DNA of 64,000 nt from Elusimicrobiota bacterium (GTDB lineage Bacteria > Elusimicrobiota > Elusimicrobia > Elusimicrobiales > Elusimicrobiaceae): the NCBI GenBank assembly GCA_029008615.1, contig JAQXJI010000039.1:1-64000 (forward strand), written 5' to 3'. The translations under genes were made by a program, and so were the position numbers. This document shows positions 10,839 to 37,280 of this stretch, piece by piece (the stretch's first letter is position 1; each line of letters begins with the position of its first letter). The notes below the pieces were generated by a model. It searched no databases, was not told the origin of the DNA, and was given only the letters and a program-made list of their open reading frames with translations.

Positions 10839-13800
10839 GTGAAAAAACTTTTAACCGTTTTCGTCAAAAAAGATTTTATGACTTTGTTTTGGGCTTGTGC
10901 GGCGGGGGCCTTCGGTGATAATATGCTTAGAACTGCTTTTGCCGCTTTTATAGCTTTCAATCTTAATGATTTTACTTACAGGCAGTACAGCACTTACATA
11001 ACGGCGGCTTTGGTCTTTTATATGCTGCCTTTTTTTGTTTTTTCTGGGTTAAGCGGCCAGTTGGCCGACAGAGTTTCCAAAGCGAAACTTATCCGTACGG
11101 TAAAACTTACCGAAGTGCTTACGGCGGTATTGGCGGCTTTCGGCTTTTATATAAAGAGCCCTCTGTTTTTGATAGGAGTAATCTCCGTTTTAGGTATGCA
11201 GGGGGTTTTCCTTAATCCCGTAAAATATGCTTTGATACCGCAAATAGTGCGCAGAGAACAGCTTATTTACGCTAACAGCATTATGGAAGCCGGGCGTTAC
11301 GTTTCCATTTTGGCGGGTACGCTGCTGGGGCTTTTGTTCGCAAAAAGCCCGAACTTGGGCCTTAACGTAGCCTGCCCGGCGATGATTGCGGTTTCTCTGG
11401 CGGGATACGCCGCCGCATTTTTTATAACGGAAAGGGAAGGTTCTAATAAGCAGCTGAAAGTAGATTGCAACATTTTTAAAAGCCTCTACGAAGCTGCTGC
11501 ACTTTGCTTTAAGGAAAAGACGCTCTTTCTTTGTATGCTTGCCATAGCCTGGTTTTGGATTTTGGGGGCGATATTCCTTTCCCAGTTGCCGGACCTTTCC
11601 GAAAATATTTTACACGCCGATGATAAAGTCTTAAATTATCTTTTGGCGTTGTTTACTTGCAGCGTGGCAATAGGCGCGCTTTTATGCCGCAAACTTTTAA
11701 AAGGTTCGGTAAGCGTCAAATATCTGCCTTTGAGTATGATAGCGATGTCTGTCGGTATGTTGGATTTGTCTTGGGCGATATCTGGCGCGCAAAGTTCTAT
11801 GGAAGTGATTAATTTTAAAAGTTTCATCTCCACTTTCGGCGGGATAAGGATTTCTTTTGACATATGTCTTATTTCCCTTTGCGCTGGGCTTTATATTGTG
11901 CCGTTGACGAGCCTTCTGCAAGTTTTGTCTTCCTCTTCCATACGCGGACGGGCTTTTGGGGCGAGCACTTTTTTTAATGCCTGCGCTATGCTGGCCGCGG
12001 GTCTTTGCAGTATGGCTCTTTTAGGATTGGGATTTGGCACCCCGCTTATTATCTCAATTTTGGCTATACTTAATATTGCGGGCGCGGTTTATATTTGCAA
12101 ACTTCTGCCAGACTATGTTTTGCGTTCCGCTTTGTTTTTTATTTTAAATTCGCTTTATTCAATAAAAGTCAAAGGCTTGGACAATTACCGCGCAGCCGGC
12201 GGAAGAACTTTGATAATAGCCAACAATAATTCCTTCCTTGATCCTTTGATAATGGCGGCTTTCCTGCCCGATGACATCGCATTTGTGGTTGACGGCACGA
12301 TAGCCAAAAGGTTTTGGGTAAAGTTTTTTCTGCGTTTTATAAAGCATTATCCGGTCGATCCGACGAACGCTATGTCCGTCAAAACTATTATTGACGAAGT
12401 CAAAAAAGGCCGCAAGGTGATAATCTTCCCCGAGGGCAGAATTTCCACCACGGGCGGAGTAATGAAAATTTATCCCGGTCCGGCTATGATAGCGGAAAAG
12501 AGCGGGGCCAAAATACTGCCGCTTTTTGTGCAAGGGACGCAATATTCCCGTTTTGCTTATTTCGGGAGAAAGCTGCGCCACAGACCGGACGTCGATTTTA
12601 CGCTTAATATTATGCCGCCCATAAAGTTGGATTTGCCTTCCCATCTTAAAAGCCGCGAAAGAAGATACAAAGCCGAAGACAAAGTTTATGACTTGATGAC
12701 GAATATGCGCTATCAAAGTTCAAATATAGATATAACGCTTTTCCGCGCGCTTATAGAAGCTTCCGATTTCGCGGGGCGCGGACTTAGAGCCTTGGAAGAC
12801 GTCAACCGCAAAGGCGTAAGTTTTGCAACTTTACTGACAGGTTCTTTTCTGCTTGGCAAGAAGTTTTCCGCTTTTACGGCTGAGGGGGAAAACGTCGGCG
12901 TTTTGCTGCCCAATATGAACGCCTGCGCATTGACGATATTCGGCCTTATGGCTTACGGCAGAGTGCCGGCGATGATAAATTTCTCATCAGGCGTTAAAAA
13001 TATTCTTTCGGCCTGCCGCTCCGCCGCGTTAAAAACGGTAATTACTTCAAAATTATTTATCGCCAAAGGCGGCTTGGAAAGCGTCCGCGACGCAATAGAA
13101 AAATCCGGCGTTAAGCTGATTTATCTTGAAGATATCCAAAAAACGGTAAGTGTTTTTGATAAAGTTAAAGCTTTGGTTAAGTCCAATTTTCCGTATTTCG
13201 CTTATAAAAGAGCCTGCCCGAATCAGGACGCAAACGCCCCGGCGGTAATTCTTTTTACCAGCGGTTCGGAAGGCGTACCCAAGGGCGTGGCTTTAAGCCA
13301 TAGGAATATCAACGCCAACCGCTGTCAGCTTTCAAGCCTTATTTCTTACGGATTGGAAGATAAGTTCTTTAACGCTTTGCCGATGTTCCATTCTTTCGGG
13401 CTGGTCTGCGGTTTGTTTATGCCGCTTTTAAACGGCGCTTCGGTGTTTTTATATCCGTCGCCTTTGCATTTTAAAATAGTGCCGGAGCTCGTTTACGACA
13501 GAAACGCCACCGTAATTTTCGGTACGGATACCTTCCTTAATGCTTACGGAAGAACGGCTCATCCCTATGATTTTTACAGCTTAAAGTACGCCGCCGTCGG
13601 TGCGGAAAAACTGAAAGACGAAACATTTAAATTGTGGTCGGAGAAGTTCGGCATAAGGGTACTGGAAGCTTACGGCGCGACGGAAATGGCCCCCGGGATA
13701 TCCTTTACTACGCCGATGTACTTTAAGCGCGGAACGGTGGGGCGGCTGTTTCCGGGTTTGGAATACCGCTTGGAAAAAGTGCCGGGTATCGAAGAGGGCG

Positions 13801-19383: not shown

Positions 19384-20040
19384 CTATATTTTACGTTCTT
19401 TTTTGGCGCGGACGGGGCGATATACGTCTATCACTTTGCCTACAAGGAATGTCGCCGCAGTTCTGATAATAGGCTCGCAAGCCGGATTATCCGGGATTAA
19501 TCTCACCTCGTCGCCGTGCTTGTACATACGCTTAACCGTGCTGTATTCGCCGTCCAAACGGGCGACTATTACATCGCCGTTGTTGACTGGCGCGTCAGGG
19601 TCAACGATAACATAATCGCCGTCATAAATACTGTTGCGCGGATCATCCGGGTCAACCATACAATTGCCGGTTATTTTTATGGCGAACTGATTAGGCCCGG
19701 TTTTGCGAAACGGCAGATAAGTTTCTGTTTCTTCAAGAATAAACTTTTCTTCCGTCGCCGAAGAAACCCCGCGGACAGGTATGTACGTTAGTTCTATTTT
19801 CCCTTCGACTATATTGTTTTGATTTTCTTTTTCTGCGTTGAAAATTTCTCTTATTTCCTCCTCTGACTTGTTAAATATCTTTGACATCTTTTTGATATTT
19901 TTTTCGCCTGGATTTTTTTTACCAGCCATCCACTCCGATATCGTAGGCGTAGAAAGTTTTAATAAAGAGGCTAATTTTGCTTGCGAACCTCTTAAATTTC
20001 CCTCATTAAATGCTGCTAAAAGCTGTTCTTTTTTATTCAT
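19384..20040 (-). CDS. cI: CI-like phage repressor (HTH plus S24 peptidase-like domain)
   Basis: I start at ATG 20040 (MNKKEQLL), which has GAGGA upstream, giving 218 residues; the longer frame crosses the early promoter. Residues about 1-65 are a Cro/CI HTH (GSQAKLASLLKLSTPTISEWMAGKK). About 100-210 is a LexA/S24 domain with DGDYVIVDPDAPVNNGD and the lysine in TVKRMYK. In this family a Ser in G-x-S-M attacks the Ala-Gly bond during induction. Here the sequence is GNCM, with Cys127 at the Ser position. A Cys may still cleave slowly or may leave an uncleavable repressor. It is divergent from the early promoter whose operator it probably binds. Confidence 0.9.
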   Translation of the reverse strand: MNKKEQLLAAFNEGNLRGSQAKLASLLKLSTPTISEWMAGKKNPGEKNIKKMSKIFNKSEEEIREIFNAEKENQNNIVEGKIELTYIPVRGVSSATEEKFILEETETYLPFRKTGPNQFAIKITGNCMVDPDDPRNSIYDGDYVIVDPDAPVNNGDVIVARLDGEYSTVKRMYKHGDEVRLIPDNPACEPIIRTAATFLVGKVIDVYRPVRAKKERKI

Positions 20041-20087: not shown

Positions 20088-20116
20088 TTGACATATTAGC
20101 TAACATTAGCTATTAT
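20088..20116 (+). promoter_or_regulatory. Early (PR-type) promoter with CI operator
   Basis: TTGACA (20088-20093) and TATTAT (20111-20116) are 17 bases apart. The spacer holds a 22-bp palindrome at 20094-20115, TATTAGCTAA-CA-TTAGCTATTA, with 9 of 10 arm positions matched. A repressor bound there would cover the polymerase site. Transcription should begin near 20123 and run right, away from cI. Confidence 0.82.
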
Positions 20117-20122
20117 TGTCTT

Positions 20123-20324
20123 ACAAGGTTTTAATCCGGTTCAAACCGGGTTAAGCTTAAATCCGCAATATGCGGCTTAGATATAGCGATAATTAGCAAA
20201 GTTTTAAAAATTTTCGGCCTGCCGCTAACAGGCTGAAACGGAATCCTATTATGGACGCCGCAGCTATATCTAAGACCGTATGGGCCCAACTTGACCGAGT
20301 GCAAGCCTATACGGTTTTTATTTT
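20123..20324 (+). ncRNA. Structured RNA from the early promoter, ended by an intrinsic terminator
   Basis: No convincing gene fills this stretch, but the RNA folds well. AATCCGG/CCGGGTT (20133-20152) forms hairpin 1 and CCGC/GCGG (20163-20175) hairpin 2. CTTAGATATAGC (20176-20187) pairs perfectly with GCTATATCTAAG (20263-20274). Inside that stem TTTCGGCCTG (20212-20221) pairs with CAGGCTGAAA (20229-20238) with one G-U. The terminator at 20275-20324 abuts the long stem. It could be a free small RNA, an attenuator controlling the early genes, or a put-like antitermination site as in phage HK022. A 30-codon reading frame at 20251-20343 overlaps it and is the competing explanation. Confidence 0.6.
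20275..20324 (+). terminator. Terminator upstream of the HTH/Xis-like gene
   Basis: ACCGTATGGGC (20275-20285) pairs with GCCTATACGGT (20305-20315), 10 of 11 positions, followed by TTTTATTTT. It lies between the early promoter and the first early gene, so early expression needs readthrough, antitermination or a second promoter. Confidence 0.72.
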
Positions 20325-20355
20325 AGCAAATTTGAGTAATTAAAGAGGATTCAAG

Positions 20356-20538
20356 ATGGTTAATGAGTATTTAACGACTAAGGAAGCGGCACAACTGGTG
20401 GGGTTTACACCACAATGGTTACGTTATTTGGCAAAGCTCGGCAGGGTGCCAGCCGTAAAGCCTTATCCCGGAGCGCGGAAGTACTTTTTTAAGCGCTCTG
20501 ATATAGAAAATTTAAAAGTTTCGGCAAAGGTAATTTAG
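20356..20538 (+). CDS. Small HTH protein (excisionase / MerR-type fold)
   Basis: 60 residues forming a single winged helix: TTKEAAQLVGFTPQWLRYLAK is the helix-turn-helix, PGARKYFFKRSDIENL the wing and last helix, as in the HTH_17/excisionase group. AGAGGA precedes the ATG. As the first protein gene after the early promoter it is placed like Cro or Xis; I cannot tell which. It could bind near attL with Int or repress cI. It is followed 8 bases later by the next small gene. Confidence 0.8.
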   Translation: MVNEYLTTKEAAQLVGFTPQWLRYLAKLGRVPAVKPYPGARKYFFKRSDIENLKVSAKVI

Positions 20539-21024: not shown

Positions 21025-21095
21025 CGCGGGGTGGTGTAAGGGTAACATGGCGGTTTCATAAGCCGCAGTTAAAGGTTCGACTCCTTTCCCCGCAA
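21025..21095 (+). tRNA. Phage tRNA-Met (anticodon CAT), initiator-like
   Basis: A full cloverleaf can be drawn. The acceptor is CGCGGGG with CCCCGCA, giving a C1-A72 mismatch as in bacterial initiator tRNA. The D stem is GTGT/ACAT. The anticodon stem is GCGGT/GCCGC with loop TTCATAA. The T arm is AAAGG-TTCGACT-CCTTT. Discriminator is A and CCA is not encoded. True initiators have three G-C pairs next to the loop; here the closing pair is T-G. Elongator Met or lysidine-modified Ile are alternatives, but both would need a 1-72 pair. Confidence 0.8.
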
Positions 21096-28004: not shown

Positions 28005-28307
28005 ATGATAGTAAAACAGCAGACTAAACTTTTTGAAAAATGGTTTAAAAAATTAGACGGTCTTTTGCAGGATAAAATCGCCCAATATATTGACAGGGTA
28101 TTATCCGGTAATTTTACCAACTGCAAGCCCGTAGGCGACGGAGTAAACGAAATTAAAATCAATTATCAAAAAGGATACCGTGTTTACTATACCGTCATAA
28201 ACAAACAAACTGTTTTACTTCTGCTTTGCGGCGGCGACAAAAAGAGCCAAAACAAAGATATTCAACTTGCTAAGGATATTAAAAAGTTCCTTGAGGGGGC
28301 AAAATGA
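28005..28307 (+). CDS. RelE/HigB-type toxin (Gp49-like killer protein)
   Basis: 100 residues. FEKWFKKLDGLLQDKIAQYIDRVLSGNF, GVNEIKINYQKGYRVYYTVINKQTVLLLLCGGDKKSQNKDI follow the addiction-module killer family (TIGR02683-like): a RelE-type fold with the conserved GYRVYY and LLCGGDK stretches. Such toxins usually cleave mRNA on the ribosome. AGGAG lies before the ATG. The toxin precedes its antitoxin by an ATGA overlap, the order typical for this family. Confidence 0.9.
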   Translation: MIVKQQTKLFEKWFKKLDGLLQDKIAQYIDRVLSGNFTNCKPVGDGVNEIKINYQKGYRVYYTVINKQTVLLLLCGGDKKSQNKDIQLAKDIKKFLEGAK

Positions 28308-28630
28308 AAAAGAATATAACTAAAGATTTTGAAATCTCTAAAGATGATTTTGATACTACCTATGCCAAAATTTTAAAGAAAGACCCTAAACGCCTTGCCG
28401 CTTTTAAAAAAAGAGTTATTGCGGACTTCAACAAAACACATAACTTGGAAGTATTTTTAAATAATCTTAAAATTTTGGTTATGGCCGGCAATGTTTCCGC
28501 TTTTGCAAAAAAAGTAAAGATACAGCGGCCTAATGTTTATAAGGCTCTAAACCCGCAGGGAAACCCGAGTTTCGCAACGATTATGACTATTACGGATAAC
28601 TTGGGTATTTCCCTTAATGCGAGGATTTGA
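28304..28630 (+). CDS. HTH antitoxin of the RelE/HigB-type pair
   Basis: 108 residues. The C-terminal half carries the HTH NVSAFAKKVKIQRPNVYKALNPQGNPSFATIMTITDNLG, matching the addiction-module antidote family (TIGR02684-like). The N-terminal part (DFEISKDDFDTTYAKILKKD) probably wraps the toxin. It likely represses the palindromic promoter at 27960-27989. The pair would stabilise the prophage or act in abortive infection. Confidence 0.88.
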   Translation: MKKNITKDFEISKDDFDTTYAKILKKDPKRLAAFKKRVIADFNKTHNLEVFLNNLKILVMAGNVSAFAKKVKIQRPNVYKALNPQGNPSFATIMTITDNLGISLNARI

Positions 28631-28690
28631 TTTGTCTTTCGTTAATAACCCTTGCTTTTTTGGTAAAAATTAGTAAAATATTTATAGATA

Positions 28691-28741
28691 TAGCTGCTCA
28701 TAAGAGTGTATTCCGTACACTTTCGGGGCGGCTTTTTCTTT
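28691..28741 (+). terminator. Hairpin and T tract before the ParB-methylase gene
   Basis: GCTGCTC pairs through some G-U with GGGCGGC, enclosing a second hairpin AGTGTA/TACACT, and is followed by TTTTTCTTTG. It closes the toxin-antitoxin transcript. Confidence 0.55.
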
Positions 28742-28770: not shown

Positions 28771-30093
28771 ATGCCGGGTTTACACTGTCAATTTTTAAAA
28801 AATGTACCTCTTAAAAACCTTACCTTGTGGGATAAAAACTTCCGCGATATCGCGCCGGAAGCGTTTGCCCGTTTAAAAAATAAAATAAAAGAACTCGGCG
28901 TATTTAAGCCCCTTTTGGCCGTTGCCGACAAAGAGCCCGGCACTTATCAGATTATCGGCGGGAATCAGCGTTTAAAAGCTTACAGGGAACTTGGCTTTGA
29001 CGCGGCCGATATCATATTCTTTCCCGATTTAACCGATAAAAAAATAATCACAAAAATAGCACTTGCCGATAACCAAAGCGACGGCAGCACCAATATGCAG
29101 CAACTTTCCGCATTGTTGGCGGAGTGTGATTTGTCCGCGGCGGATTTGGCGGATTATGCGCTTTCCGGGGAAAGCCTTTCTATCCCGGATTTACTTTTGG
29201 AAGGCGAAAATCCGGCGGAAGTAAAAGAAGTTCCGCTCCCCTCGGAAGAGGAAATAAAACCTCGCGTAAAAGCGGGGCAAATTTGGCGTTTGGGCGAGCA
29301 TATTCTGCTTTGCGGGGACAGCACTAATCCGGCGGATATAAACCGCTTAATGGGCGGTTTAAGCGCGGATTTGGTGGTTACCGACCCGCCTTACAATATG
29401 AACTATCAGGGCGCGGGTAACAGAGAGCCGCGCAGAACCCAAAAAATCAAAAACGACCACTTGCCGGCTAAAGACTTTGAAGCCTTTTTAAGTAAGATTT
29501 ACCAAAACATTTTTACCGCTTTAAAAGAAAAGGGCTCTTTTTACGTGTTTTATAAAGAGCTTGGCAAAGGCGTGTTTATTACGGCTTTGGAGCGTTCCGG
29601 GCTGACCTTTAAGCAACAGCTAATTTGGCTGAAAAATCAGTTTGTTTTAGGCGGCGCAAAGTATCAAAACATATACGAGCCTTGCCTGTTTGGCTGTAAG
29701 GGTAAAAGCATAGGCACGTGGAACGGCGGGCGTAATAAAGCCAATGCCTTGGACGATTTGGATTTTATGAATGAAGCGGAACTCCGCCAGACGGTTAAGG
29801 ATTTAAGGGCCGTATTAACGCCGGACGTCGTCTGTGTGGATAAGCCGCTTAAAAATGATTTACACCCGACGATGAAGCCGATTAAGCTTTTGGCGCATTT
29901 GATTGAAAACAGCTCTAAAAGCGGGGATATCGTTTTAGATTTATTCGGCGGCAGCGGCTCAACTTTAATAGCGTGCGAGCAGTTAAAACGCAAGTGCCGC
30001 ATGGTAGAACTTGACGCGCATTACTGCGACGTCATTTTAACTAGGTGGGAAAGATTTACGGGCAAGGCGGCGGAACTCTTGCAGGGGGCGTAA
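28771..30093 (+). CDS. ParB-domain DNA methyltransferase (beta class, N4/N6)
   Basis: 440 residues in two domains. Residues about 10-110 are a ParB/sulfiredoxin-like domain (ELGVFKPLLAV, IIGGNQRLKAYRELG). About 165-435 is a methyltransferase with DPPYNMNY (motif IV) first and LDLFGGSGSTLIACEQ (motif I) at the end, the beta-class order. This fusion is widespread just upstream of phage terminases, and may protect DNA or mark packaging sites. The start is uncertain because no good ribosome site precedes ATG 28771. Confidence 0.9.
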   Translation: MPGLHCQFLKNVPLKNLTLWDKNFRDIAPEAFARLKNKIKELGVFKPLLAVADKEPGTYQIIGGNQRLKAYRELGFDAADIIFFPDLTDKKIITKIALADNQSDGSTNMQQLSALLAECDLSAADLADYALSGESLSIPDLLLEGENPAEVKEVPLPSEEEIKPRVKAGQIWRLGEHILLCGDSTNPADINRLMGGLSADLVVTDPPYNMNYQGAGNREPRRTQKIKNDHLPAKDFEAFLSKIYQNIFTALKEKGSFYVFYKELGKGVFITALERSGLTFKQQLIWLKNQFVLGGAKYQNIYEPCLFGCKGKSIGTWNGGRNKANALDDLDFMNEAELRQTVKDLRAVLTPDVVCVDKPLKNDLHPTMKPIKLLAHLIENSSKSGDIVLDLFGGSGSTLIACEQLKRKCRMVELDAHYCDVILTRWERFTGKAAELLQGA

Positions 30094-30516
30094 ATGCCTG
30101 CAAGGAAGAAAACCGCACCGCCGATTAAGCCGGTAAAGAAAGCAGGCAAAGGCGGAGTAATACCGCCGGCGGCGCACAGGTTCAGCAGAACCAATCAGCC
30201 CAGCGCGCAGGCCAAAAGCGCGGGGCTAAAAGCTTGGCACGACAGGCGCAAACTTTTGGATTTGGTGGCGGAAGAATTTGCCGAAGATATAACTTTGGCG
30301 GACGGTACGCAGATAGCCGGCACAAAAGCTTTAGTGTTGCGGCTTAAAAAAACGCTTTTAAGCCCAAATACGGACGCTTTAAGTTTAGATCAGGCGAAAC
30401 TGGCTTTTAAGTTCTTTGACACGGTAAGCAAAGCGGGCGCGGACTACACGCAGGAAGAGTCCGCCCAAGACGAAAGCAAAGTGCAAATTATTGACGATAT
30501 AGGCGGTAAAAAGTAA
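30094..30516 (+). CDS. terS: Probable terminase small subunit
   Basis: 140 residues between the ParB-methylase and the large terminase, overlapping the latter by one base. The N-terminal 45 residues are basic and Pro/Lys-rich. The rest is helical (GLKAWHDRRKLLDLVAEEF, LSLDQAKLAFKFFDTVSK). No specific family signature is seen; the call rests on position and size. TerS recognises the packaging site. Confidence 0.6.
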   Translation: MPARKKTAPPIKPVKKAGKGGVIPPAAHRFSRTNQPSAQAKSAGLKAWHDRRKLLDLVAEEFAEDITLADGTQIAGTKALVLRLKKTLLSPNTDALSLDQAKLAFKFFDTVSKAGADYTQEESAQDESKVQIIDDIGGKK

Positions 30517-31757
30517 TGAATAGGATTCGTTTATCGGGAATTTTTATTTCTAAATTTCATGCCGTTTGGCAAGAGATAAAGACTCATAAGTTTACGCACT
30601 ATTTTTTTACCGGCGGCAGATATTCTACAAAGAGCAGTTTTATCAGTTTGGCGATAATATTGCTTCTAATCAGGGATGAAGAAACCAATGCCGTAATATT
30701 CCGCCAAGTAGGCGACACATTGCGCGGCTCCGTCTTTGAGCAAATGTTGTGGGCTATCAATGTTTTGGGGTTAACCTATAAATTTAAATGGACGGTAAGC
30801 CCAATGCAGATAACATATTCGCCGACGGGCCAAAAGATTGTTTTTAAAGGTTTGGACGATGCGGGCAAAACCAAATCAATGAAGTTGCGGAAAGGTATTT
30901 TTAAAATTGTCTGGTTTGAAGAGTTTGACGAATTTAAAAATATGCGCGAAGTTCGAAAGGCCATACAATCGGCCCAGCGCGGCGACAAAAACGCTGATTT
31001 TTGGATATTTTACAGCTTCAACCCACCGGCGGCAGTCGGGCATTGGGCCAATAAAGAAGTAAAAATTCCGCGCAAGGATAAAGTTGTAACGCATTCGTCA
31101 TATCTAGATGTTCCGGCGGCGTGGATACCCAAACAGGTGCTTATAGAGGCCGAGGAATTAAAACAGGCGGATGAAGCGGCTTATCGTAATGAATATTTAG
31201 GCGAAGTTACCGGCGTAGGCGGTTTGGTTTTTCCGAAGTGGCAAGTTTATACGAACGAAGAGGAACCTAAAAAATATGACGATGTTATTTACGGTATGGA
31301 TTTTGGGTTTAATCACCCGACGGCGTTGGTTAAGTGCTCTTTTAAAGAAAAAAATGTGTATCTGCGCGAAGTGTTGTATGCGCGGCATTATACTACCGGC
31401 GAGATTATAGATTTAATGAACGCTTTAAACGTTGATAAGAAATTAACGATTATCGCCGACAGCGCAGAGCCGGACAGAATAACGGAAATTTGGAATGCGG
31501 ACTATCAAATCCAAGGCGCGGTTAAAAGTGATGTAGTGGCAAGTATAAACATTTTGAAGAAGTATAAGATTTTTGTCCACAAGGACAGCATAAATTTGCA
31601 GGATGAGCTGAACTCTTATCATTGGAAAGCCGATGTTTCCGGCGAGCCGCTTGATAAGATAGAGCCGAACAAGCAGCATGACGACGCTATCGCGGCTGTA
31701 AGATATGCGGTTCAGTATTACGACAAAAACACAAATATTGATTTTTTTAGTTATTAA
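30516..31757 (+). CDS. terL: Terminase large subunit
   Basis: 413 residues, PBSX/Terminase_3 type. The ATPase has an unusual Walker A, GGRYSTKSSF, and Walker B with catalytic acids WFEEFDEF, then the coupling motif YSFNPP. The nuclease domain shows YGMDFGFNHPTALV, IIADSAEPDRI and the final HDDAIAAVRYAVQY, giving the three acidic clusters of an RNase-H fold. It drives DNA packaging and cuts genome ends. Confidence 0.93.
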   Translation: MNRIRLSGIFISKFHAVWQEIKTHKFTHYFFTGGRYSTKSSFISLAIILLLIRDEETNAVIFRQVGDTLRGSVFEQMLWAINVLGLTYKFKWTVSPMQITYSPTGQKIVFKGLDDAGKTKSMKLRKGIFKIVWFEEFDEFKNMREVRKAIQSAQRGDKNADFWIFYSFNPPAAVGHWANKEVKIPRKDKVVTHSSYLDVPAAWIPKQVLIEAEELKQADEAAYRNEYLGEVTGVGGLVFPKWQVYTNEEEPKKYDDVIYGMDFGFNHPTALVKCSFKEKNVYLREVLYARHYTTGEIIDLMNALNVDKKLTIIADSAEPDRITEIWNADYQIQGAVKSDVVASINILKKYKIFVHKDSINLQDELNSYHWKADVSGEPLDKIEPNKQHDDAIAAVRYAVQYYDKNTNIDFFSY

Positions 31758-31766
31758 AGGATAAAA

Positions 31767-33863
31767 ATGAAAAAGTTTTTACAAAAAATAGGGCGTAAAT
31801 TATTTGGCTTTGAAAGCGAGAATCAAAGCCTTATGTGGACGACCGTAGTAGGCGGCCCGGATTTCACTAAAGAGCGCAAAAACGGTTTTTTGGACGCAAA
31901 TATCAGGGCGATAGGCAACGCGCTTTGCAACGGACGTTTAAGCCTTAAAGATAACGACGGACAGGAAATCGTTTACACGAAGAAAGGCGATAATCCGCTG
32001 TTGGATTTGCTTTATCAGCCGTCCAGATTTTTAACGCAAAATCAGTTCCGCCAAATTATAACGGCGCACTATCTTATTTACGGAAATATTTTCATTTTGA
32101 AAAATGGCAGAGACGGACAAGGCCGTCCGTCCGAACTTATCCCTATTCCCGCGCCATGCGTTGAAATATTGACGGATGCAAAAGGTTATCCCAACGGGTA
32201 TAAAATCTTTTTAACGCGCGGGCAATGTTTAATATTGCCCTACGAAGACGTTTTACATATTTACGAGGGTAACGCTTACAGTCTTTATAAAGGTTTGCCG
32301 CGGGCGGAAGCCTGTCTGATTGACAGCGCGACTTTACACGCTTCCAAAGAATTTAATTTGTCATTTTTTACCAACGGCGCAAGTGTCGGCGGTGTTATTA
32401 CAATGCCCAAAGAAGGCCGTCCTCTAAGGTCTGACGAGCGCGAAGAAATGCTTGCTTTCTTTAACGACCGCCACGTCGGCGCGAAAAAGGCGCACAGAAC
32501 CGGTCTTTTGCAAGGCGGGGCGACGTACAGCCCTATATCAGTAACGTCGCATAAGGATATGGACTTCGTAAACGGACAAAAGGCGTCAATGCAACAAATT
32601 TACAGCGTTATGGGTGTTCCGCCTGCACTTTTGGGCCTTTTTGAACACGCGCCGCAGTTTAACACCAAAGAACAACAGCGTATTTTTTATGAAACGACCG
32701 TAATCCCTCTTGCAAGATTAATAACCGATGCTTTTAACGAATATTTGCTCGGCGATTTTTACAAAGATGAACGTTACTATATAGATTACGATTTCAGCAA
32801 GGTGGAAGCTTTGCGGCGCGATTGGAACAGCGACGCTGACGCACTTTTGAAGCTTGCCCAAAAGTTTCCTTTGAACGCGGTAAAAAATGCTTTGGAACTG
32901 CCTTTGCCGGATGTTGAAGGCGGCGACGAGCCCCCGGCCCCGGTTTTATCGGCTTTTACTTTTAACCGCGGCAATTTGGAAAGCAAGGATTTTCCTAGGA
33001 AAAGGGTTCGTCAAATCAGGCCGAGCCCGGCGAAAATAAAAAAACATAAAGAGGCGCAAATAGCGTTGTTGAACTCTTTAAAGCCGCTTATGGCTGAAGT
33101 TATGGAAAAGCATTTTAAAAACCAATACGAAGCCGTCAAGAGTTGGAATAAAGAAAATGCGGATAAGCCTTTTGATTATGACGCGGTTTTCGGTTCTTTG
33201 AACTTGCAAAAGAACAATCTTTTGGCTCTTAAAGTGCCGGTTTTGAGCGAAGTATTCAACGCCGGTTTTGAACAGGCTCAAAGCTATATTCAAAGCGTAT
33301 CACCGCAAAAAGATTTTAAATTCATAAGCCGTAAGGATTTAAACGACAGGGTGCGCGCTTGGGCCCAGGCGAACGCGCTTTTGTGGTGTTCAAGCATAGA
33401 AGATACTACGTTAAAGGAGCTAAATGGCATTGTGGAAACCTTGGTTGCCGCTGGCAAACCTAATAAATTTATCAACGATGTAATTTTGCAATTTTTCAGC
33501 CGTGAGGGCTTTGAACCGATGGACGACATAATTGAACAATCCGGCGGAAATTTACGCCACACAAGCGTATATACGCGCATTGAAACAATAACGCAAACAG
33601 AAGTGCGCAATACGATAAGTGAAAGCGAACTGGAAGCCTATAAAAGCACGCCTTTTGTTACCCTCAAAGGCTGGATTACCACGCTGGGCGTAAGCGACCA
33701 TCACAAAGGCCACGAGGAAATGGACGGGCAGGAAGTCGGTGTTGAAGAAAATTTCAAAAACCCGCTTACGGGCGACGAAGCGCAAGCCCCCGGGCAATTC
33801 GGCGTAGCCGACCAGGACATTAATTGTTTATGCGCGACTTATCCCGTAGTTTTGGAGGACTAA
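31767..33863 (+). CDS. Portal protein fused to a MuF-type head protein
   Basis: 698 residues, much longer than a usual HK97-type portal (about 400). Residues about 1-390 are the portal (LYQPSRFLTQNQFRQIITAHYLIYGN, DFVNGQKASMQQIYSVMGVPPALLGL). About 420-560 is helical linker. The end (ITQTEVRNTISESELEAYKS, WITTLGVSDHHKGHEEMDGQEVGVEENFKNP, DINCLCATYPV, shown in part) matches the SPP1 gp7/MuF minor head domain. The portal forms the dodecameric DNA gate, and MuF domains are carried in the capsid, often with effectors. The fusion is direct and in frame. Confidence 0.9.
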   Translation: MKKFLQKIGRKLFGFESENQSLMWTTVVGGPDFTKERKNGFLDANIRAIGNALCNGRLSLKDNDGQEIVYTKKGDNPLLDLLYQPSRFLTQNQFRQIITAHYLIYGNIFILKNGRDGQGRPSELIPIPAPCVEILTDAKGYPNGYKIFLTRGQCLILPYEDVLHIYEGNAYSLYKGLPRAEACLIDSATLHASKEFNLSFFTNGASVGGVITMPKEGRPLRSDEREEMLAFFNDRHVGAKKAHRTGLLQGGATYSPISVTSHKDMDFVNGQKASMQQIYSVMGVPPALLGLFEHAPQFNTKEQQRIFYETTVIPLARLITDAFNEYLLGDFYKDERYYIDYDFSKVEALRRDWNSDADALLKLAQKFPLNAVKNALELPLPDVEGGDEPPAPVLSAFTFNRGNLESKDFPRKRVRQIRPSPAKIKKHKEAQIALLNSLKPLMAEVMEKHFKNQYEAVKSWNKENADKPFDYDAVFGSLNLQKNNLLALKVPVLSEVFNAGFEQAQSYIQSVSPQKDFKFISRKDLNDRVRAWAQANALLWCSSIEDTTLKELNGIVETLVAAGKPNKFINDVILQFFSREGFEPMDDIIEQSGGNLRHTSVYTRIETITQTEVRNTISESELEAYKSTPFVTLKGWITTLGVSDHHKGHEEMDGQEVGVEENFKNPLTGDEAQAPGQFGVADQDINCLCATYPVVLED

Positions 33864-36850: not shown

Positions 36851-37280
36851 TATCACTACTAAGAACTTTGACGCTATGCTTAAGCGTCTGGACGAGGCGG
36901 AACAAAAAATAATGACGGCTGCTGTTAAAGCCAATATAGCTGCGGCTTCAGAGGCGGAACGGACGCTTAAACAGGGATTATCCCAGCGCGCCGGCAGGAA
37001 GCCGAGTGATAAAAACTATCGTAACAGTCCTAAAGGTTCTTTGCCATACGGCCATACTATGGCATTAAGAAACAGTATCGGTTTTAAAGTTTTAAGAATC
37101 GGAAACGGCATTAAGGTCGAATTCGGGAGCGGTGCCCGTAAAAGTTCGATTGAGTACGCAAAGTATTTAGAAGGGCGAAATGGCAACGGTATAAGGCCTT
37201 TTTTGTGGGCGGCCTCGGGGATTTTTAACGCCGACACAATTATCGAAAAATTTAGAAAGTTTTACGGCAGGTTGAAATGA
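36843..37280 (+). CDS. HK97 gp10-like tail completion protein
   Basis: 145 residues, overlapping the previous gene by 8 bases. ITTKNFDAMLKRLDEAEQKIMTAAVKANI helix, then LPYGHTMALRNSIGFKVLRIGNGIKVEFGSG, then IEYAKYLEGRNGNGIRPFLWAAS, the characteristic order of the HK97_gp10 group. Confidence 0.85.
   Translation: MINITTKNFDAMLKRLDEAEQKIMTAAVKANIAAASEAERTLKQGLSQRAGRKPSDKNYRNSPKGSLPYGHTMALRNSIGFKVLRIGNGIKVEFGSGARKSSIEYAKYLEGRNGNGIRPFLWAASGIFNADTIIEKFRKFYGRLK

Follow-up and report, generated by a model that had tools for sequence, protein, structure and literature searches.

What does a structured RNA of about 200 nucleotides (nt) do when it starts at the early promoter of a prophage and ends at a terminator of its own, just ahead of the first early gene? 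The question is raised by a 64,000-nt stretch of an Elusimicrobiota bacterium of the family Elusimicrobiaceae (assembly GCA_029008615.1, contig JAQXJI010000039.1, positions 1 to 64,000 of the forward strand), here called the window, which lies in a genome of 1.66 Mb. The region is a prophage, with an integrase, an S24-type repressor, recombination genes, a terminase, a portal, a capsid and a tape measure protein. A structured RNA in its immunity region had been proposed from the sequence, and a phage small RNA, an attenuator and a put-like antiterminator had been considered as its role (the original prediction). Our analysis indicates that the terminated early RNA, referred to as the leader, probably pairs with the late transcript of the phage, antiterminates the late terminator T1 and thereby switches on the virion genes.

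The leader consists of the following elements. Transcription starts were placed by promoter spacing.

20088..20116, plus strand: early promoter TTGACA-17-TATTAT, matching the consensus at 11 of 12 positions, divergent from the repressor gene
20095-20102 and 20105-20112, plus strand: two ATTAGCTA repeats in the promoter spacer, a plausible operator
20123..20322, plus strand: early leader RNA of about 200 nt with predicted ends
about 20126..20158, plus strand: 5' hairpin at the transcript start, from the fold; its stem sequence is replaced in the homologue G001
about 20163..20175, plus strand: hairpin 2, CCGCAATATGCGG, from the fold and from relatives
20176..20187, plus strand: 5' arm of P1, CTTAGATATAGC, in a perfect 12-bp long-range stem with its 3' strand P1' (20263-20274)
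20213..20237, plus strand: nested hairpin inside P1, about 10 bp, from the fold and arm-swap energies
20260..20272, plus strand: pairing segment GCAGCTATATCTA, perfect complement of the late site 28685-28697, overlapping P1'
20275..20324, plus strand: intrinsic terminator of the leader, arms ACCGTATGGGC and GCCTATACGGT, then TTTTTATTTT; abuts P1'

The predicted RNA was borne out in all its parts: the two 5' hairpins, the 12-bp stem, the nested hairpin and the abutting terminator are present, and the consensus promoter with its spacer repeats precedes them. Positions 20123-20320 fold with -78.3 kcal/mol, compared to -47.5 +/- 4.1 kcal/mol for shuffled sequences (z = -7.45), and none of 200 shuffles was as good. 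The terminator hairpin (20275-20315) has 11 bp with one G-U pair and a loop of 19 nt; because of this loop it was missed by a simple terminator scan. The covariance-model search that had been suggested was run against the Rfam 15 families, and the leader matched none at the gathering threshold (best sub-threshold E >= 0.65). An open reading frame (ORF) of 30 codons at 20251-20343 was rejected as a coding sequence: it is not conserved, and in G001 it has no ATG and its frame meets a TAG in the terminator arm. A comparison of codons and stems had been set beforehand, and its outcome, an unconserved ORF and compensated stems, favours an RNA. The terminator tail TTTTTATTTTA.CAAATT was considered as a functional motif and discarded. 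As ordinary host terminators that follow tRNA genes have the same tail, we treat it as host terminator style.

Homologues were searched in 150 related genomes, and a pattern derived from the leader and promoter of the repressor was searched in 149 genomes of the order. G-numbers denote genomes and their prophages, and most loci come from metagenome assemblies. The homologue search returned a single full-length homologue, G001, which is the closest one (85% identity over the leader), and partial matches to both leader ends within the family. The pattern search found nine prophages, with the same architecture in all nine. Every locus that was read has the same order: a divergent repressor, a promoter with a phage-specific operator, the leader elements, a ribosome binding site and the early gene. 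Within the leader, a 5' hairpin (ACAAGG..CCTTGT in most genus-g6 relatives) is followed by a short hairpin of the CCGC..GCGG type, P1 with its nested hairpin, and the terminator. Altogether this architecture recurs in 12 Elusimicrobiaceae prophages, which form at least six groups by P1 sequence. Since it recurs with unrelated stem sequences, the structure is under selection, and the primary sequence is little conserved.

Arms of the same phage pair with mean energies of -14.2 (P1), -17.8 (terminator) and -10.8 kcal/mol (nested hairpin), compared to -2.1, -6.7 and -3.2 kcal/mol when arms were exchanged between phages. Between G038 and G037, A-U pairs have changed to G-C on both sides of P1. Own arms pair, swapped arms fail and G001 has lost the ORF; what is conserved is therefore the fold of the RNA. 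Thus, the phage small RNA of the original prediction is supported as a discrete, terminated and structurally conserved RNA. One locus lies in a single-contig genome of 1,643,562 bases (G018), probably that of Elusimicrobium minutum Pei191; its prophage is also found in IMG/VR as 642555127. Among viral contigs, the repressor search gave no match, the terminator pattern gave two unrelated matches only, and the repressor-leader pattern gave mostly chance matches plus two true ones, L072 and L075.

The relatives also showed two further features. In L005, L006, L009 and L016, a cargo of 300-400 nt is inserted between the 5' hairpin and the RNA core and carries small ORFs on the reverse or forward strand; these stretches are candidate accessory or defence genes. 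A possible kissing contact of the leader terminator loop with a hairpin upstream was seen by eye in relatives, with words of two groups (CUGCAAA:UUUGCAG and CUGCGAA:UUCGCAG), and was not seen in the window.

The partner of the leader lies at the start of the late genes, where the window contains the following elements.

28652..28679, plus strand: late promoter TTGCTT-16-TAAAAT, weakly matching the consensus and assigned in part by analogy to relatives
28685..28697, plus strand: leader target TAGATATAGCTGC, located where the late transcript presumably begins and extending into the 5' arm of T1
28692..28739, plus strand: T1, the terminator that immediately follows the late promoter (-20 kcal/mol)
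28771..33863, plus strand: first late genes (ParB/DNA methyltransferase, a gene without hit, terminase large subunit, portal; PHROGs)

T1 was located without use of the leader sequence. Strong terminators were listed along the early-late unit, followed by a scan for a promoter and then a terminator. A strong terminator stands at the early-late boundary in nearly every prophage, and the scan found a single promoter-terminator module per prophage in eight prophages and one more in G033. G001 carries the late module too; it was missed by the scan because its promoter is too far from the consensus. The late-promoter pattern taken alone also matches ordinary host promoters. In every prophage examined T1 lies directly before the late genes, including those for terminase and packaging. 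In the window it is 8.4 kb downstream of the leader, and prophages with the usual gene order have their late promoter 7.6-13.6 kb away. The late promoter of genus-g6 relatives is TTGAAA-17-TATACT, with a predicted start within a few bases of the T1 hairpin. No operator was seen at the late promoter, which looks constitutive. The leader of G082 is on a contig too short to reach the late region. Further late promoter-T1 modules were noticed in L162 (G065), L174 (G087) and L165 (G051), where the T1 words are new or shared.

In each phage, the 3' strand of the leader P1 region is the complement of its own late transcript at the 5' end, including the T1 5' arm. In the window, 13 nt match perfectly (20260-20272 with 28685-28697). 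Perfect matches were likewise obtained in G037 (14 nt), in G038 and G072b (10 nt, or 13 counting G-U) and in G029, G048, G072a and G033 (9 nt). G001 has 11 nt and then 5 more past a one-base bulge, and G018 has 9 nt plus 5 after a bulge. Own pairs thus comprise 9-14 perfect nt compared to 3-6 nt for the best match between lineages, which results in a block-diagonal matrix. Own pairs form duplexes of -18 to -22 kcal/mol, and most foreign duplexes lie between -5 and -12 kcal/mol. Six or seven lineages, including the probable E. minutum, pair with unrelated words. Dinucleotide shuffling of T1 in six lineages gave 4, 0, 1, 37, 5 and 3 sequences per 3000 that were as good as the real one (0-1.2% per lineage). 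G000 and G001 have changed together: each leader prefers its own site (-21.7 and -22.4 kcal/mol, compared to -14.7 and -14.8 kcal/mol for the exchanged pairs). In G029 and G072a the 5' arm of P1 has diverged and the P1' strand still matches T1. By energy, the T1 site is the best of its region (∼7,800 windows of sequence) in four phages. The predicted leader-T1 pairing is therefore well supported, and the strength of the case is that in every lineage the match falls on an element that had been located independently.

In G040, no late site was seen at first in the ∼40 kb downstream of the leader. Its late operon lies beyond the repressor, on the strand opposite to the early operon, where TTGACA-17-TATACT is followed by T1 and the gene of the terminase large subunit. 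Leader and T1, checked here after the hypothesis had been formed, form 17 bp, one of them G-U, with an energy of -29 kcal/mol. As the two RNAs come from different strands, pairing in G040 is possible only in trans. The geometry of the other prophages permits pairing in cis and in trans alike.

At T1, the leader match covers the linear stretch at the transcript start together with the 5' arm. Since pairing occupies this arm, pairing and the T1 hairpin exclude each other. The predicted gain from pairing is 2.9-8.4 kcal/mol with a nascent 28-nt T1 compared to 0-2.9 kcal/mol with full-length T1, which fits a switch that acts co-transcriptionally. We suggest that the early promoter would give a stable RNA of ∼200 nt ending at its own terminator, while some polymerases would read through to the early genes. 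An open stretch and part of P1', both on the 3' strand of the P1 region, would pair with the 5' end of the nascent late transcript and block the T1 hairpin, so that polymerase could proceed into the terminase and virion genes. In the lysogen, where the early promoter is silent, no more than a terminated RNA of ∼50 nt would be made from the late promoter. The leader would then be the late-gene activator of the phage, with RNA pairing doing the job of lambda Q. The production of both RNAs, their pairing in the cell and the antitermination that follows are what we infer from the sequences. With somewhat less confidence, we favour the wider view that in these phages an early RNA acting in trans has replaced a protein late activator, that some of them use a second contact at a tandem terminator, and that specificity is confined to the lineage as in an immunity group.

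Several observations weigh against this mechanism. The pairing segment is largely base-paired in the folded leader, so that strand invasion would be needed; P1 may be a store of the segment that is opened in this way. The terminator of the early operon is explained only as a means of making the RNA. In the phages other than the four mentioned above, further windows of the region, which are GC-rich, pair with the leader as well as T1 does by energy alone. The window itself holds a second perfect 13-nt complement of the leader (ATATAGCTGCGGC, 36934-36946) within a late gene, which is probably due to chance and otherwise a possible extra target. G051 has a late module and no visible leader in the upstream stretches that were read; the late modules of G065 and G087 are on contigs too short to hold one. 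Moreover, T1 is followed in several prophages by a second terminator, T2, and therefore the opening of T1 alone would be insufficient. The inner hairpin of the leader was compared with the T1-T2 stretch or the T2 arm in these phages. Among 1500 shuffles, 1 (G018), 0 (G040) and 2 (G029) were as good as the real match; the match is weaker in G048 (14/1500) and not significant in G037 (185/1500). G038, which has no clear T2, still has a match behind T1 (1/600 shuffles as good), and in the window lineage, also without a clear T2, this second match is absent. A second, lineage-specific leader contact with the T2 region is thus likely in some phages, though unproven.

Complementarity is symmetrical, and the late promoter with its constitutive appearance could be the source of a regulator. 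In that case a short RNA produced constantly in the lysogen from the late promoter would pair with the leader and control early transcription or titrate the leader, much as the CI RNA of phage P4 or other terminated phage RNAs do. A precedent for such action in trans is the terminated late-promoter RNA StxS of Shiga toxin (Stx) phages, as described in a review of phage small RNAs (PMC12197685). Pairing would, however, break P1 and leave the leader terminator intact, no alternative structure of P1 and terminator is shared, and on the late side it is the terminator itself that pairing abolishes; we regard this direction as unlikely. A slightly lower probability still is given to an element in cis, by which the leader would modify its own polymerase in the manner of put, EAR or canT, or attenuate the early operon, and the T1 match would be secondary or be confined to a single long early-late transcript. 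Placed immediately behind the early promoter and with a terminator ahead of the first gene, the leader resembles put (PMC9378689) and Tn916 canT (PMC11658703), and cargo between promoter and core is tolerated. This view leaves the lineage-specific complementarity to T1 unexplained and conflicts with the late operon of G040 on the other strand; moreover, the homologues have no antiterminator pairing in common and little conserved primary sequence. The attenuator suggested originally, like a riboswitch, is not supported, since partial-leader folding revealed no sequestering of the leader's own terminator arm common to the homologues. The terminator 5' arm is paired upstream with a probability of 0.74-0.80 only in G000 and G001, compared to 0.02-0.51 in the others.

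The similarity could also reside in the DNA, if a lineage-specific DNA-binding protein recognized both the leader DNA and the late promoter, and shared words do occur at promoters in both places. We consider this very improbable: the matches occupy fixed positions of RNA structure (the P1' strand and the T1 5' arm) and extend as RNA duplexes, with a G-U pair in G040 and bulges in G001 and G018, and the divergence of the P1 5' arm in G029 and G072a has left the match of P1' to T1 in place. Almost no weight remains for chance or a recent duplication without function. Single complements of 9-10 nt can arise by chance in 20 kb, and several phages have equally good sites elsewhere in the region, but the unrelated words of six or seven lineages all fall on the 5' arm of an independently located T1, and this and the low shuffle rates argue against it. 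Pairing of the early leader with the late transcript, opening T1, remains the reading we prefer.

To our knowledge, no natural phage RNA activates transcription by pairing with an intrinsic terminator. A comparable RNA late switch was not found in the literature searched, which was open-access only and hence gives weak evidence of absence, nor in the passages covered of the 2025 review of phage small RNAs (PMC12197685). The closest parallel is synthetic. In small transcription activating RNAs (STARs), an RNA in trans binds, at the start of a transcript, a linear region together with half of an intrinsic terminator (the 5' one) and prevents the terminator from forming (PMC5648800); STARs are reported to act while the transcript emerges (PMC5648800). 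The leader shares with them its complementarity to a linear region and a terminator 5' arm. STARs are engineered, whereas the leader is natural, highly folded and phage-encoded, with putative control of virion genes. Lambda Q (PMC6606751) offers the same layout, in which a late promoter is followed immediately by a terminator and an early product activates the late operon by read-through, but the activator here appears to be the early leader RNA. PHROGs searches with a part of the early proteins, several of which had no match, gave no Q-like antitermination protein.

The comparison with HK022 put (PMC9378689) was apt in spirit, as both are structured RNAs that closely follow an early phage promoter and are proposed to defeat terminators. 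Target and mode differ: put is a ∼70-nt element of two stem-loops with conserved unpaired bases that acts in cis, independently of any protein factor, via the zinc-binding domain of the RNA polymerase beta' subunit, whereas the ∼200-nt leader has a different fold, ends at its own terminator and would choose a late-operon terminator by base pairing. Tn916 canT, B. subtilis EAR and pLS20 conAn2 (PMC11658703) are likewise leader RNAs of mobile elements or operons that serve antitermination, but they are (or are thought to be) processive in cis on RNA polymerase and have no base-pairing target. The CI RNA of phage P4 (PMC4825925) is an immunity-region RNA that pairs with a phage transcript and affects termination. 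It terminates its own early operon, whereas the leader would prevent termination of the late operon; and where P4 CI and the C4 RNA of phage P1 are characterized by pairing within their own leader that causes termination there, the partner is here the late T1, whose hairpin and the pairing exclude each other. IsrK of Gifsy-1 (PMC4825925), a short prophage RNA, exists in a terminated and a read-through form and activates by pairing in trans. It activates translation, however, and its interference with termination comes from the protein AntQ.

If the proposed mechanism is true, transcription activation by RNA pairing with an intrinsic terminator, built synthetically as STARs, would exist in nature, and the early-to-late switch of a temperate phage could run on RNA alone. 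It would also provide a defined regulatory RNA for an unstudied gut phylum, the Elusimicrobiota, and natural pairs of RNA switches that are mutually orthogonal. Eleven leader-target pairs were obtained, one of them probably from the cultured species E. minutum.

The early promoter lies between the following two genes.

19384..20040, minus strand: CI-like repressor (HTH_3 and Peptidase S24; Pfam), divergent from the early promoter
20356..20538, plus strand: first early gene, HTH_17 / excisionase-like (Pfam, PHROGs)

The homologues have equivalent early promoters, with operators that differ from phage to phage. A tRNA gene with a CAT anticodon (window 21025-21095) is part of the early operon. 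The sole match to phage records was over 85 bases of this tRNA gene, to the porcine Inovirus record MT135304. Directly upstream of the late promoter (window 28005-28630) is a toxin-antitoxin-like pair, consisting of a PHROGs 'toxin' and a helix-turn-helix repressor.

Other RNA-like units were observed along the way. L125 (minus strand, near 13245) and L130 (minus strand, near 12224) contain a promoter-to-terminator unit of ∼100 nt on the opposite strand, ∼3.6 kb behind the late site, whose promoter ends with CTTTTTCGCTATACT; similar units are present in L150 and L184. A recurrent unit GGGAGC..GAGAACC..GGGTTATGCCCCGTAAAAGGGC..GCTCCC with a T-run and a strong promoter was found in L136, L139, L155, L164, L187 and L188 and is probably a host non-coding RNA of the family. 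Finally, L128 carries tandem repeats resembling a CRISPR array (GTTCCTATTAGGCACCGAAGAATAAGGTAGAATATT) ∼16.3 kb along its reverse complement.
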